From Sulfurimonas sp. HSL-1656 (GTDB lineage: Bacteria > Campylobacterota > Campylobacteria > Campylobacterales > Sulfurimonadaceae), in the NCBI RefSeq assembly GCF_039645585.1, contig NZ_CP147915.1:2046001-2110000 (forward strand): DNA of 64,000 bases. Reading direction: 5' to 3'. Both the position numbers and the translations under genes were made by a program. Numbering within the stretch: the first letter of the stretch is position 1; each line of letters opens with the position of its first letter. This document shows, piece after piece, positions 16,528-40,581 of this stretch. Under the pieces are notes generated by a model. The model did no database searches and was not told the origin of the DNA. It saw only the letters and a program-made list of their open reading frames with translations.

Positions 16528-16573
16528 GCAACCTTTCCGGGCAAGGCCCTCTGTGTAATTTGTCGTGGCAACG

Positions 16574-16579
16574 ATTATA
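16574..16579 (-). promoter_or_regulatory. -10 box of hpf
   Basis: TATAAT on the minus strand, 46 bases before the hpf start codon. A weak TTGAAT lies about 19 bases further upstream. The leader of roughly 40 bases contains the GGAAAGG ribosome site. It is back to back with the recG promoter. Confidence 0.5.
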
Positions 16580-16625
16580 ACACAGCAAACATGTCATTAT
16601 TCAAGCCGATCGGGCACAAACGCGT

Positions 16626-16631
16626 TAAAAT
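16626..16631 (+). promoter_or_regulatory. -10-like box immediately before recG
   Basis: TAAAAT ends only 5 bases before the recG ATG. No ribosome site lies between. If used, the transcript would start at or next to the start codon (leaderless). Confidence 0.35.
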
Positions 16632-16636
16632 ACCCC

Positions 16637-18427
16637 ATGCAAATTGAACAGGCCGATATCGAAAAATTCAAAAAGCTCGGAGTCTACTCGGCCGCAGAAC
16701 TGGCCATACTCGTCCCGGTCCGGTTCGAAGACCGCCGGCTCTATCCCAGGTTGACCGAGGGGCATGATCAGGCCATCGACGCCACCGTCGAATCTATCCA
16801 CCGTACCTCTCGCACCGTTACGATCACCCTCTTTGTCCACAATTTCGGTCACCGCATCGAAGGGGTCCTTTTCAATCCGAAACCCTATATGCTCCGTTTT
16901 TTCGTCGAAGGGGAGCGGGCCCTTTATTACGGCCGCATCGACTGCAGACAGGGACGCTGCCAGATGAGCCATCCACAGCGCATCCCCGAAGCGGGCTCGC
17001 TGACACCGAAGTACAAAACGGCGCTGCGGACTGACGTGATGGCGCGTCTGGCGGCGCGCTACATCACCCGGGAGAGCCTTTTGGAAGAAGGGCTGCCGCC
17101 GCATGTCTCCGATGCGCTGCTGGGGCTCCATTTCCCCCAAACCGCGCCACAGAAGGAGCCGACACCCGCAGAGCTCTATGCACTCAAATACGCCGAACTC
17201 TACAGCTACATGCGTTCGCTCCGGGGGAAACGGCGTTACTTCGATGCCCTGCAGAGACTCGGCAGTGATTGGCGCCGCTGGGCCATGCAGCTGCCGTTTC
17301 TGCTGACCGATGAACAGACGCGGGCCATCGAGGCGATCGAAGCGGATTTTAAAAAGCCCCATGCCGCCAAGCGGATGGTCGTCGGCGATGTCGGCGCCGG
17401 CAAGACGATGGTGATCCTTGCCGCCATGCAGATGGCCACACCGCACCGCAGCATCCTCATGGCCCCGACGACCATTCTCGCCAACCAGCTTTACGAGGAG
17501 GCACGGAAATTCCTCCCGGAAAAGAAGATATTACTCATCACCAATGCCACACCGAAAAAACTGCCGCTGGAGGAAGCCGATGTCCTCATCGGGACGCATG
17601 CCCTGCTTTACCGCGACCTGCCCGAAGCCGCGCTCATCATGGTGGATGAACAGCACCGTTTCGGCACCGCGCAGCGCCACCGGCTCGAGAAGCTGATCGC
17701 CGACGGTGCCCGTCACCCCCACTACCTTCAGTTCTCCGCCACGCCCATCCCCCGGACCCAGGCCATGATCGATTCCGCCCATATCGACGTCAGTCTCATC
17801 ACCAAGACCCCTTTTAAAAAGGACATTACGACCACGGTCATCCACAAACCCGATTTCCCCTCCCTGTTGGCACATATCCGCTCCGAAATCGCGCAATCGC
17901 ACCAGGTGCTCATCGTCTACCCGCTGGTGGAAGAGAGCGAGAATTTCGGCTACCAGAGCATTGAAGAGGCACGGGGTTACTGGGAGAAGCATTTTGCGAA
18001 CGTCTACGTCACCCACGGCAAGGACAGGGAGAAAGAGGTCATTCTTGAAACGTTCAGAGAGCGGGGGGATATCCTGCTTGCGACAACCGTCATCGAGGTC
18101 GGGATCTCCCTTCCGCGCCTGACAACTGTTGTCATCGTCGGCGCCGAACGGCTCGGGCTGGCGACCCTGCACCAGCTGCGCGGACGCGTCAGCCGCACCG
18201 GGCTCAAGGGATGGTGTTTTCTCTATACGAACCTGAACGAGAGCGAGCGACTCGACGCCTTCCGCCAAACGGATAACGGCTTCGACATTGCCGCACTTGA
18301 CCTCAAATACCGCAAAAGCGGTGATCTTCTCAAAGGGAGCATCCAGAGCGGGAAGAAGTTCCTCTGGGCCGATCTGGCCGAGGATGAGGGAATTGTGCGG
18401 GAAGTCAAAACGGCGCTATCGCCCTGA
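16637..18427 (+). CDS. recG: ATP-dependent DNA helicase RecG
   Basis: A 596-residue superfamily 2 helicase that regresses stalled forks and branch-migrates Holliday junctions. An N-terminal wedge/OB region (RFEDRRLY and so on) is followed by the helicase core: Walker A GDVGAGKT (about residue 256), motif II DEQH in MVDEQHRFGTAQRHRL, FSATPIPRT, and the TRG-region motif (VIEVGISLPRLTTVVI, HQLRGRVSRTG). It is about 90 residues shorter than the E. coli protein, with a compact N-terminus as in other Campylobacterota. The ATG at 16637 was chosen over an upstream one, because the upstream segment lies in the hpf promoter region and is not protein-like. Confidence 0.95.
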   Translation: MQIEQADIEKFKKLGVYSAAELAILVPVRFEDRRLYPRLTEGHDQAIDATVESIHRTSRTVTITLFVHNFGHRIEGVLFNPKPYMLRFFVEGERALYYGRIDCRQGRCQMSHPQRIPEAGSLTPKYKTALRTDVMARLAARYITRESLLEEGLPPHVSDALLGLHFPQTAPQKEPTPAELYALKYAELYSYMRSLRGKRRYFDALQRLGSDWRRWAMQLPFLLTDEQTRAIEAIEADFKKPHAAKRMVVGDVGAGKTMVILAAMQMATPHRSILMAPTTILANQLYEEARKFLPEKKILLITNATPKKLPLEEADVLIGTHALLYRDLPEAALIMVDEQHRFGTAQRHRLEKLIADGARHPHYLQFSATPIPRTQAMIDSAHIDVSLITKTPFKKDITTTVIHKPDFPSLLAHIRSEIAQSHQVLIVYPLVEESENFGYQSIEEARGYWEKHFANVYVTHGKDREKEVILETFRERGDILLATTVIEVGISLPRLTTVVIVGAERLGLATLHQLRGRVSRTGLKGWCFLYTNLNESERLDAFRQTDNGFDIAALDLKYRKSGDLLKGSIQSGKKFLWADLAEDEGIVREVKTALSP

Positions 18428-18463
18428 TGTGTAATGAGACAGCTTGACAATATCCGCTTCTAC

Positions 18464-18596
18464 TGTCAAAGCCGAAACGGTCGTTAGCGTCTCAGGCGGC
18501 TCACCGGGGAATGGAATGTCCCGAAGGCGTCAGCCCTTTGTGCTTTCTTCTTCCCGGTTCGGCTTCTGCTTTACACAAGTAAAGAAGAAGGGGAAC
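18464..18596 (+). repeat. Intergenic repeat, copy A (about 133 bp, hairpin at 3' end)
   Basis: This gene-free stretch between convergent recG and the M16-like gene matches 39755-39887 without gaps; I count 111 of 133 identical bases by hand. Long invariant blocks are TCACCGGGGAATGGAAT and TTTCTTCTTCCCGGTTCGGC. The 3' end forms a hairpin CTTTAC-ACAA-GTAAAG inside a longer TTCTTC/GAAGAA stem. Short open frames across it are not protein-like. It could act as a bidirectional terminator or be a small mobile repeat. Confidence 0.75.
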
Positions 18597-18607
18597 GAAA
18601 AAGCCTT

Positions 18608-19903
18608 TTACTCCTCCGTCACAATCGCGAAGGTAAGCTTCTCGATCTCCCCATGCTTTTTGATGAAGGCATTGAGCGTGGCAAGGTCGAGCGTTTCGAT
18701 CTGCGCGAGTTCGCGGGTGGAAGCACCGATGCCCTCCCCCTTGTAGTACTCCAGGAAGGTGCGCGAAAGGCGCTGGGAGAGTGTCTCGACACGCAGCGGT
18801 TCGGAACCGAGCAGGAAGCGCTTCGCCTGATCGAGCTCCTCCTGGGTCACCCCCTTCTCGATGAACGTTTCGATCACTTCCCGCACCGTTTCTACCGCCT
18901 CTTTCTGCGAAGCGATCTTGGTCTGTAGGTACCCGAAGAAGTAGCTGCTCGAACGGGCGATATTGGCGCGGCAGTATGCAGAGTAGGCCAACCCGCGCTT
19001 GACACGGATCTCCTCCATCATCCGGCTGCCGAAGCCGCCGCTGCCAAGGATGAACATCGCCACGCGGCTGATGTAATGCTCGGGGTCGCTGACTTTCATC
19101 TCAAAAGGTGCGCCGAAATAGACGTAGGCCTGTTCCGTCTTGCGTTTGAGCAGCTCCGTCTTTGCGGCTGCGCTGGCCGGGTAGAACCCGAGGCGCTCCA
19201 GTGAACCCTTCGGCAGGTGCCCCAGCAGACGGCGCGCGGCATCAGCGGCGTCCGCCTTGGAAATATCCCCGCCGATCACCACGATGGCACGTGACGTCTG
19301 GAGATGATTTTCGACAAACGATTTGATCTGTTTGAGTTCCATGGCCTTGACACTCTCAACCGTCCCGGAAGCCGGGGTAGCCAGCGGTGTTCCGGCAAAA
19401 AGTGCCGCTTTGAGCTCGCGGTTGGCAACATAGTCAAAGTCACTCTCTTTGCGGCTGAGCGCACCGACAGAAGTCGTCTTCACCTTCTGCAGGGCTTCCT
19501 TACTGAGGTTGGGAGAAGTGAGCAGCTCTTCGAGCAGACCGACCGCTTCGCCGAACTCCTCTTTGAGCGACCCCATTTCAAAGACCATCGTCTCTGTCCC
19601 GGCATGCACGCTGAGATGGATGGCCCGGGCGTCGAGCGCCTCTGCAAAACCGACGGCGCCGCGCTTCTGCGTCCCTTCGTTGAGCATTGAAGCCGTCACC
19701 TTCGCCAGGCCCGCACCGGCGCCGTCCTCGATCGAACCGCTCTGACGGAAGACCAACTGCATGGAGACGATCGGAAGCCGAGGGTCCTGCTCAAATATCA
19801 TCGGCACCTCGATGCCGTTTACTTCTACCTGTTCCACCGTCGTTTCAGCCATTACAATCTGTCCTGTGAAAAAAATGAATATTAATAGCGCTTTGAGGCT
19901 CAC
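18608..19903 (-). CDS. M16 peptidase-like exported protein without the HxxEH zinc motif
   Basis: A 431-residue protein with a signal peptide (residues 1-19). It has the two M16 halves: the N-terminal domain (VSMQLVFRQSGSIED, MLNEGT) and the PF05193-type C-terminal half (SGGFGSRMMEEIRVKRGLAYSAYC). Active M16 enzymes have HxxEH after the Gly-rich turn. Here the matching stretch is GLAKVTASMLNEGT, with none of the three residues, so it should be the non-catalytic type, possibly pairing with an active subunit elsewhere. Its ATG overlaps the mqnC stop by 4 bases. The expected location is the periplasm. Confidence 0.85.
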   Translation of the reverse strand: MSLKALLIFIFFTGQIVMAETTVEQVEVNGIEVPMIFEQDPRLPIVSMQLVFRQSGSIEDGAGAGLAKVTASMLNEGTQKRGAVGFAEALDARAIHLSVHAGTETMVFEMGSLKEEFGEAVGLLEELLTSPNLSKEALQKVKTTSVGALSRKESDFDYVANRELKAALFAGTPLATPASGTVESVKAMELKQIKSFVENHLQTSRAIVVIGGDISKADAADAARRLLGHLPKGSLERLGFYPASAAAKTELLKRKTEQAYVYFGAPFEMKVSDPEHYISRVAMFILGSGGFGSRMMEEIRVKRGLAYSAYCRANIARSSSYFFGYLQTKIASQKEAVETVREVIETFIEKGVTQEELDQAKRFLLGSEPLRVETLSQRLSRTFLEYYKGEGIGASTRELAQIETLDLATLNAFIKKHGEIEKLTFAIVTEE

Positions 19904-38650: not shown

Positions 38651-39703
38651 GTGAAGCCGCAGACGATCTTCGCCATCCTGCTCGCGGCATCGCTCTACTG
38701 GATGTACCTGCTCTACAGCCCCTACCTGATGAGCATCCTGATCGCCTCCCTGCTGGCTGTTTCGACCTTCTCGTTCAAACGGCGTCTGCGGGAGTGGTCC
38801 GGATCGGTTCTCACGGCGGCGGCCCTCTCGACACTCGTGATGGCCCTGCTCTTTTTCGCACCGCTGGGCTACTTTCTCGCCAAGATCACCATCTACCTTC
38901 AGCACTTCGACCCGGCGACCCTGGAATCGGTCATGGACTACCTGCAGGAACTCATAGAGCGCGCGCCGGGATTCTCCGGGCGCTCCAGGTCCCACATCTC
39001 GGACTTTATTGCCTCGTATGACCCCGCCGAACTGACGAAGAGAGCCCTCGCCTACGCCGGCACCATCGGCAGCATCAGCGCCTCCTTCGTCAAGAACGCG
39101 TTTATGATCATCGTCTTCTACTTCTTCGCCCACCTCTACGGCCAGCGGCTGGCGGCCTACTTCAAACACGTCATCAATCTTCCCCCCGACGATGCGGCCC
39201 TGCTGGGCTCGGAGGTCTCTTCGGTGATGAGCATCGTCTTCTACTCGATTCTGCTCACCGCAGCCCTGGAGGGGGCCCTCTTCGGAATCGCCGTCAGTTT
39301 CATGGGCTATAACGGGCTGCTTTTCGGCATCCTGTTCGGATTTGCCTCGCTCATCCCCGTCGTCGGCGGCGCGCTGATGTGGGTCCCCTTTTCCCTCTAC
39401 GAACTCTCCGTCGGCCATACGGGCAGCGCCGTTTTCATCGCGCTCTATACGATCGTCGTCATCTCGGTAATCGCGGACACCTTCATCAAACCGGTGATCA
39501 TCAAAAGCATCGACAGCAAGCTCTCCACCACCGAGACCAAGCGTAACGAGCTGATCATCTTCTTTGCCATCATCGCGGGGCTGACAAGCTTCGGTTTCTG
39601 GGGCATGATCCTCGGTCCCGCCATCACCGCCTTCTTTATGGCGCTGCTGACCCTGGTGGAACGCAAAAACGCAATCAGCGAACGGGTCACGGATATCAGT
39701 TGA
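38651..39703 (+). CDS. AI-2E family transporter (PerM-like permease)
   Basis: A 350-residue membrane protein with about eight spans. It has the family pattern: paired N-terminal helices (ILLAASLYWMYLLYSPYLMSILIASLL), a soluble middle domain, and C-terminal GLLFGILFGFASLIPVVGGALMWVP and VIKPVIIKS-like motifs (here FIKPVIIKSIDSK). Family members export AI-2 in some species or act as sodium/proton carriers in others, so the substrate is open. A GTG start is used, 9 bases after ruvB. It is last of the panB-ruvB unit, followed by repeat copy B. Confidence 0.88.
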   Translation: MKPQTIFAILLAASLYWMYLLYSPYLMSILIASLLAVSTFSFKRRLREWSGSVLTAAALSTLVMALLFFAPLGYFLAKITIYLQHFDPATLESVMDYLQELIERAPGFSGRSRSHISDFIASYDPAELTKRALAYAGTIGSISASFVKNAFMIIVFYFFAHLYGQRLAAYFKHVINLPPDDAALLGSEVSSVMSIVFYSILLTAALEGALFGIAVSFMGYNGLLFGILFGFASLIPVVGGALMWVPFSLYELSVGHTGSAVFIALYTIVVISVIADTFIKPVIIKSIDSKLSTTETKRNELIIFFAIIAGLTSFGFWGMILGPAITAFFMALLTLVERKNAISERVTDIS

Positions 39704-39754
39704 ATAGCAGTCAGAGTTAAGAGTTAAGAGCAGCCTGTGACAATCCGTCCATTC

Positions 39755-39887
39755 TGTCAAGGCCGAAACGATCATTAGCGTGTCAGCCGGATCACCGGGG
39801 AATGGAATATCCCGAAAGCGGCAGCTTGTTGCCCTTTCTTCTTCCCGGTTCGGCTTCTTCTTTGGGCACACAAAGAAGAAAGGGAAC
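39755..39887 (+). repeat. Intergenic repeat, copy B (about 133 bp, hairpin at 3' end)
   Basis: This is the second copy of the element at 18464-18596, again in plus orientation and again between convergent genes (the AI-2E transporter and dut). About 83 percent identity without gaps, counted by hand. The 3' hairpin is TTCTTCTTTG / CAAAGAAGAA with loop GGCACA. One stem pair is A-T in copy A and G-C here, which suggests the structure is kept. The element ends 14 bases before the dut stop codon. Confidence 0.75.
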
Positions 39888-39900
39888 AAACAATTGCAAA

Positions 39901-40581
39901 TTACGCTGCCGGGTAGACGCTTTCCAAAGCGGCATAAAGTTGCTCAGGCGTCATATCGCCTTTCTCTTCCCAAAGCCGCTTCATCACAACGTTGTCCTCT
40001 TCCCCGTTCCACACCTTGACGTAGTGCCCCTCTTTATAACCGTGGTCCTGGCGGAACTGGTTGAGGATGTTCTTGCCGACATAGAGGCGGTAAAGCGACG
40101 TGAGGTCGAGGTTGCTCATGCGGACCAGTTCAAAGAAGTCCGCCAGCAGCTTGGTGAGGTCAGGCTTGCTGTCGAGGGCATCTTTCATCACCGACTCCAC
40201 CTGGGCCATCACGAGCTTCTCGACGGCGAACCCTTCTGCATCATCGTTGAGCATCTCGTAAAAGGGCATGATCGCGATCGCCTTCGCCGCGTCATCGAGG
40301 CTGCCGAGATCGCGCTGCTTGTACTCCTGCAGCACCAGGCTCATCACGAAGTGCCAGACATCGATGACTTCGATCTGCAGGTTGGCCCAGTCCGGCTCGG
40401 CCGCGATGTTTTTCCAGTGCTTCCAGGCGAACGAATCGATCATCTCCGCGCACTCCATGTAGATGCAGCGCTTCCAGTTGATCGCCTTGCCGTTCTTGGT
40501 CGTACCCGCTTCCCAGTCTGCTCCGTTTGTGGCATCGTTGAGCTGCTGTTGCAGCTGCAGCATCTGTAAAGCTCTGTTCAT
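39901..40581 (-). CDS. dut: Dimeric dUTPase (dUTP diphosphatase)
   Basis: A 226-residue all-helical dUTPase of the MazG-like superfamily used by Campylobacterota in place of the trimeric enzyme. It has NWKRCIYMECAEMIDSFAWKHWK and IEVIDVWHFVMSL, which provide the acidic magnesium ligands. A later YVGKNILNQFRQDHGY matches Campylobacter Dut. It hydrolyses dUTP to dUMP, keeping uracil out of DNA. GGAG lies 8 bases before the ATG, and it is a single gene. Confidence 0.93.
   Translation of the reverse strand: MNRALQMLQLQQQLNDATNGADWEAGTTKNGKAINWKRCIYMECAEMIDSFAWKHWKNIAAEPDWANLQIEVIDVWHFVMSLVLQEYKQRDLGSLDDAAKAIAIMPFYEMLNDDAEGFAVEKLVMAQVESVMKDALDSKPDLTKLLADFFELVRMSNLDLTSLYRLYVGKNILNQFRQDHGYKEGHYVKVWNGEEDNVVMKRLWEEKGDMTPEQLYAALESVYPAA

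Follow-up and report, generated by a model that had tools for sequence, protein, structure and literature searches.

We found that two similar intergenic stretches in the window, a 64,000-nucleotide segment of a Sulfurimonas sp. HSL-1656 contig, belong to a repeat family. The family itself, covariation among three strands of its 3′ module, fixed sites at which modules have been exchanged, and an orientation locked to replication are all established computationally. A role in polar pausing where convergent genes end is inferred as the most likely function.

A family of mosaic intergenic repeats

An earlier note had described two intergenic copies, A and B, about 83% identical over 133 ungapped bases, in the same orientation, between convergent genes and lacking coding capacity. 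This description proved accurate. Positions 18464–18596 and 39755–39887 agree at 111 of 133 bases (83.5%), and both copies lie on one strand; the next best place for copy A in the window matches at 54/133 bases and the best on the opposite strand at 55/133. Copy A is flanked by converging genes at 16565–18427 (+) and 18608–19903 (−), a DEAD-box helicase gene and an M16 peptidase gene, and copy B by converging genes at 38651–39703 (+) and 39901–40581 (−), an AI-2E-family transporter gene and a dUTPase_2 gene. A composition-based gene picker kept no listed open reading frame across either copy, and a coding function was rejected, as no gene is retained across copies. The repeat is longer than the 133 bases noted: BLAST aligns 140, and copy A, judged against other copies, spans about 18438–18600 (Table 1).

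Table 1. Parts of copies A and B of the repeat, in window coordinates
Feature	Position	Strand	Basis or remark
Copy A, heptamer array upstream of spacer			none recognisable left in own genome
Copy A, spacer/core module	18438..18526	+	alignment with 11 other copies
Copy A, predicted 3′ triplex-pseudoknot module	18527..18600	+	covariance model R1, 91.3 bits
Copy A, S1 5′ strand TTGTGC	18538..18543	+	5/6 pairs with 18573–18578, one C-A mismatch
Copy A, predicted pyrimidine third strand TTTCTTCTTC	18544..18553	+	parallel to purine strand 18581–18590
Copy A, S2 pyrimidine strand CTTCTGCTTT	18563..18572	+	one mismatch
Copy A, S1 3′ strand ACACAA	18573..18578	+	inside S2 loop
Copy A, S2 purine strand AAAGAAGAAG	18581..18590	+	
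Copy B, remnant heptamer array AGTTAAG	39715..39730	+	slightly more than 2 units
Copy B, spacer/core module	39731..39817	+	array end 87 nt ahead of module
Copy B, predicted 3′ triplex-pseudoknot module	39818..39891	+	covariance model R1, 93.9 bits
Copy B, S1 5′ strand TTGCCC	39829..39834	+	5/6 pairs with 39864–39869
Copy B, predicted pyrimidine third strand TTTCTTCTTC	39835..39844	+	
Copy B, S2 pyrimidine strand CTTCTTCTTT	39854..39863	+	
Copy B, S2 purine strand AAAGAAGAAA	39872..39881	+	outermost pair lost

The earlier note had left open whether the two copies were a lone duplication or members of an intergenic family under selection. A search of the whole genome (G000) returned 16 BLAST matches, and a covariance model of the 3′ module found 18 separate places together with 2 weaker opposite-strand echoes at those same places; each of three closed relatives holds 16–17 copies. 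The copies in this genome and its relatives dispose of the lone duplication and support a family under selection. Among 60 genomes, this one included, the module was matched in 10: 7/8 in its own genus (g1), 2/2 in sister genus g8 and one in genus g15, where there is a single weak match. In a sample of the phylum, at least 11 of 397 genomes matched, in g1 and in genera g23 and g71 of another family (f6); at least 8 of 41 f6 genomes matched a model built from that family and at least 8 of 347 a mixed model, the large searches having scored only some candidates per genome. An overly strict pattern search in f6 matched 1/60 genomes. Viral contigs and plasmids gave no match in a search restricted by low-complexity filters and exact patterns.

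Read 5′ to 3′, a full copy consists of a variable tandem-heptamer array, a spacer of about 85 nt and a 3′ module of about 65 nt, and some copies have fewer of these parts. The module is preceded by GCGRCAGCC and ends in GGGAACAAA. A degenerate heptamer pattern has 83 overlapping matches at 13 loci of the genome, and the reversed pattern, used as a control, has none. In g1 the array ends 83–89 nt ahead of the module in copies with the usual spacer and 52–113 nt ahead of it across all copies. The heptamer unit itself varies among loci and among orthologues (AAGTGCT, AAGAGTT, AAGCGTT, AAGCGTG, AGGTAGT and AAAAGCG are among the g1 units), while the position of the array about 87 nt ahead of the module is kept; the orthologue of copy B in G005, for instance, carries an AAGCGTT array of 4.1 units. 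Some f6 modules also have heptamers upstream (GAAATTA, GTAGCAG, GGAATTA and others), and many modules in both g1 and f6 have no array. Conversely, five array loci of the genome have no module, and these array-only loci are not polar with respect to replication (3/5). At three of them, L103, L105 and L106, the heptamers start close to gene ends; at L103 and L106 the stop codon of the gene apparently lies inside the array, and the arrays of L103 and L105 lead into a terminator-like hairpin and T-run. Repeat addition of the telomerase or retron kind was considered as a source of the arrays and rejected: a reverse transcriptase (PF00078) is found neither in this genome nor in 15 of the 18 genomes examined, and by eye there is no template for the varying heptamers.

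The mosaic has further parts. A minority of copies, among them L014, L126, L150 and L177, which come from several species and different sites, carry an insert of about 47 nt with two small hairpins that separates the 3′ strand of S1 from the purine strand of S2, a position at which the pseudoknot described below can absorb extra sequence. A second, G/C-rich palindromic repeat of the TCCCCCGAGGGGACTTCCTCCGGGGCG type stands directly upstream of the arrays at L002, L003 and L008 and takes the place of the element at L252 and L253. In the g8 genome G031, modules are clustered in groups of 2–4 (L181, G031:C1:1847000-1852000; also L183, L184 and L185), with their own conserved core of about 170 nt and a conserved CTACTATC tail, and these are not replication-polar. 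Integron attC-like arrays were considered in view of four G031 modules within 1.5 kb and discarded, since the intervening open reading frames are short and mostly overlap the repeats.

Structured RNAs of known families were sought as well. The Rfam scan of the window returned the purD RNA alone at gathering score (RF01069, 35670–35800 on the minus strand, 85.5 bits), a motif linked to the phylum Campylobacterota; at four copy-bearing loci scanned up to an E-value of 5, every match fell below gathering score. The earlier note had also suggested a small RNA, which the element may yet prove to be; no sigma-70-like site was seen in the two stretches scanned for a promoter.

A predicted three-stranded fold of the 3′ module

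For this module a pseudoknot is predicted, with a pyrimidine strand lying as the third strand on a homopurine helix. Helix S1 (6 bp) pairs the sequence ahead of a pyrimidine run with the loop of helix S2 (10 bp), and each letter of the run between S1 and S2, read in parallel, is complementary to its counterpart in the S2 purine strand, the register in which T.A-T and C+.G-C triples would form. Triples of the latter kind require protonation.

The two helices are supported by covariation. In an alignment of 14 of the 16 BLAST copies, L011 and L014 being omitted because of their inserts, 95.5% of the S1 and S2 cells are paired compared with 88.1% after shuffling, and 23 cells are changed on both sides compared with 7.2 after shuffling and at most 2 in slid controls. 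Six pairs have changed on both sides, and 0/500 shuffles match the observed values. S1 and S2 are the predicted crossing helices of an H-type pseudoknot, with compensatory changes at 4/6 pairs of S1 and 2/10 pairs of S2. An exact descriptor recovered 17 distinct perfect combinations of S1 and third strand, and across g1 and g8 (53 distinct rows) the third strand matches in 409/424 cells, in a register that was itself chosen with the triple included.

A test free of any register was also applied to the third strand. The mean longest parallel run is 10.37 in g1 (27 rows; 8.08 shuffled, 7.67 in the antiparallel control), 10.50 in g8 (14 rows; 8.25 and 8.50) and 11.96 in f6 (24 rows; 9.59 and 10.62), 1/35 f6 sequences having yielded no region. 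In each of the three groups 0/1000 shuffles reach the observed value, a significance that the shuffles overstate because the rows share kinship; that three clades with different letters agree carries more weight. An earlier parser with a fixed register, based on S1, S2 and pyrimidine content, gave 0.817 in g1 and 0.875 in g8, above shuffles, and 0.647 in f6, not above shuffles; it probably missed the f6 effect because its register departs from the bulged f6 helix. S1 is weaker in f6, where it holds at 0.836 of positions.

Such covariation bears directly on the possibility that the element is a neutral repeat homogenised by gene conversion, its mirror symmetry and heptamers being products of polymerase slippage in pyrimidine-rich DNA. 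Module types do shift between sites, chimeras exist, and heptameric repeats are over-represented in bacteria (PMC4692102). However, S1 covaries although it is not pyrimidine-only (24 types in g1, 19 in f6), the third strand covaries too, and the polarity described below recurs in two families, so that we consider a neutral origin highly improbable.

Which strand folds is indicated by g8. By hand count, the outer extension of S2 occurs there as GTTA/TAAC, GTCA/TGAC and GCTA/TAGC and, about seven times, as the wobble form GTTA/TGAC, while the C-A counterpart of the wobble never occurs, which suggests that it is the pyrimidine strand that folds. The S1 mismatches of g1 and g8 are about balanced (10 of G-T type and 7 of C-A type). 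A nearest-neighbour calculation for copy B, which takes no account of pseudoknots or triples, favours a different, long hairpin (−24.5 kcal/mol).

Orientation, gene ends and inheritance of the sites

The genome has dnaA at the start of contig 1 and a skew change near 1.28 Mb, and all 18 copies follow this layout: those in the first half are on the minus strand, those in the second half on the plus strand. The same holds for 17/17 copies in G004, 17/17 in G005 and 16/16 in G007, where the assignment rests on collinearity of the sites with our genome rather than on dnaA at the contig start; the counts leave out opposite-strand echoes (2 in our genome, 4 in G004, 6 in G005 and 4 in G007), and by orthology the copies of the four genomes represent 19 distinct sites. 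In f6, where dnaA and skew were checked, 8/8 copies in G104 and 5/6 in G261 agree, two opposite-strand echoes being omitted and the one exception being a weak match (E 7e-4). Over six closed genomes of three genera, orientation thus tracks replication at 32 of 33 distinct sites, and every polar copy has its purine-rich strand as the template for lagging-strand synthesis. The terminus is avoided, its third of the chromosome holding 2/32 strong sites (hand count; binomial 3e-4). In the closed g8 genome G031, with the same dnaA and skew layout, 6/19 modules obey the polarity; these modules have a different core, and no heptamers were seen with them. Hence the fold alone does not impose polarity, which belongs to the g1 and f6 forms.

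Placement relative to genes is similarly biased. Convergent genes flank 13/18 copies, compared with 34/184 adjacent pairs in sampled DNA of the same genome (binomial 1e-6, with a rough gene picker). The gene 3′ of the module points toward it in 16/18 cases, and its stop codon is often 5–10 nt away.

The purine strand on the lagging template and the convergent placement make a polar road-block our first choice, held with modest confidence. Specifically, we tentatively favour, at slightly less than even chances, a vertically inherited mosaic intergenic repeat that acts as a polar road-block through its 3′ module. The module of about 65 nt would be the working part. On a single pyrimidine strand, either RNA or single-stranded DNA, S2 (about 10 bp and its outer extension) would close a loop, the loop would pair with the sequence immediately upstream to form S1, and the pyrimidine run would enter the major groove, running parallel to the purine strand as a Hoogsteen third strand. 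Given the orientation of the element, a head-on transcript would carry the knot, and the element would slow or halt the fork and/or a head-on RNA polymerase at convergent gene ends, while slippage would have produced the heptamer arrays, their unit drifting freely. A mirror repeat studied in mammalian cells was found to stall forks more when its purine strand is the lagging template (PMC5295012). The idea that the polarity is a harmless tolerance was rejected: more stalling has been reported for this orientation than for its reverse, and G031 disregards polarity. A still broader picture, in which triplex-locked pseudoknots form chromosome-wide polar pause sites for replication or transcription at origin-proximal convergent ends, with heptamers as a self-renewing by-product, is speculative and on the whole doubtful.

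The same placement would also suit an element acting in RNA, a pseudoknot that, from the 3′ UTR of the gene read head-on, stabilises the transcript or terminates it, in the manner of a triple-helix stability element or a factor-dependent terminator. The G-U-type exchanges in the g8 outer helix favour the pyrimidine strand, pyrimidine-motif triplexes form in RNA (PMC4666352), and two array-only loci end in a hairpin and T-run. The earlier note had suggested a terminator-type repeat, and one part of that suggestion survives: in both window copies, short, weak matches to a stem and pyrimidine tail occur at the 5′ edge of the module, which may yet be a weak or factor-dependent terminator. A T-run after the module, on the other hand, is lacking in 85 of 86 copies (1/86 have one on the pyrimidine strand and 0/86 on the purine strand), 4/18 sites have no co-directional upstream gene, and at convergent pairs, where either strand would serve, the replication-linked orientation is left unexplained. 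We regard an RNA-level role as rather doubtful.

The 18 sites of our genome have orthologues in other g1 species, and at 16 of them the module type differs among species (hand count); it follows that the places are inherited and the sequences swapped between copies. L007 and L149 are chimera-like, with breakpoints inside the module and a weakened S1, yet they persist and look like products of exchange between copies. At the place of copy B, G004 and G007 have about 1.2 kb of other sequence.

The earlier note had also proposed a REP- or MITE-like element, and a more elaborate version of that proposal is a fossil of a non-autonomous mobile element, once moved at forks by an extinct single-strand transposase of IS200/IS605, REP/RAYT or PATE type, whose orientation bias would date from the time of insertion. 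Strict replication polarity, a hairpin-like end and a patchy distribution over two families are what such a fossil would leave, and IS200/IS605 elements are known to target the lagging template (PMC6006769). A Y1 transposase gene is present in 10 of 18 genomes examined, including G104, G261 and G031. The Y1 domain was, however, found zero times in our genome and in G003, G005, G006 and G007, and at a borderline score in G004; moreover, contig 1 of G104 has seven equal-scoring, IS200-like Y1 genes of 143 aa that themselves lie on both strands. Copies number 18, not hundreds, and their sites are common to several species. The one usable empty site, in G005 (the remaining absent sites contain other sequence), differs from L002, L128 and L161 over the whole intergenic stretch, with no clean joint and no target-site duplication. 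These observations speak against the REP/MITE-like element, and the fossil, too, appears unlikely.

Relation to known systems

Two ingredients of the element are already known, namely intrastrand triplex motifs in bacteria (PMC4666352) and intergenic heptamers (PMC4679880, PMC2700814, PMC4692102). In literature coverage that leaves out most subscription journals, we found no report of a pseudoknot-locked pyrimidine form or its three-strand covariation, nor of the polarity of the element or its association with heptamer arrays. Evidence for selection on a triplex fold is rare in bacteria, and three-strand covariation supplies such evidence; an orientation locked to replication in two families makes an in vivo role of intrastrand triplex repeats, at forks or in RNA, testable.

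Pseudoknots with a triple helix are well known in RNA: in telomerase RNA and SAM-II, as in the MALAT1/ENE triple helix, a pyrimidine strand in the major groove is locked by a second helix or loop. The present element resembles them in that a pyrimidine strand is predicted to occupy the major groove of a helix, but it is present many times per genome, is not known to have a host gene or ligand, and occurs in a genome that lacks a reverse transcriptase. With REP/BIME and RAYT-linked repeats it shares the character of short, structured extragenic repeats at gene ends; unlike them, it has no Y1 transposase, few copies and a single orientation.

Intergenic tandem 7-mers at many loci have been described as TAACTGA in Beggiatoaceae, as Geobacter elements and as GGGAATC in Xanthomonas (PMC4679880, PMC2700814, PMC4692102). 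In contrast to those, the heptamers found here differ in unit by locus and orthologue and keep their position at about 87 nt.

The element also resembles the intrastrand triplex motifs of the ITxF database (PIT/BoxC, TMECO), in which a strand folds twice on itself and which are likewise intergenic, repeated and patchy among relatives. TMECO, the best-studied of these in bacteria, is concentrated in the origin-proximal half in E. coli K-12 and showed no triplex footprint in vivo (PMC4666352); the word pseudoknot is absent from that paper. The predicted module agrees with the intrastrand-triplex (ITxF) definition in having three consecutive, potentially triplex-forming strands and stems of 6–15 nt. 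However, TMECO is a G/C-rich purine motif of 37 nt (PMC4666352), whereas the present element is an A/T-rich pyrimidine motif. Furthermore, unlike ITxF motifs as defined in PMC4666352, it has a helix between loop and flank that would make a pseudoknot, its loops (about 9–13 and 8 nt in copies A and B) exceed 1–6 nt, and it is distinguished by an orientation tied to replication and by a larger mosaic.
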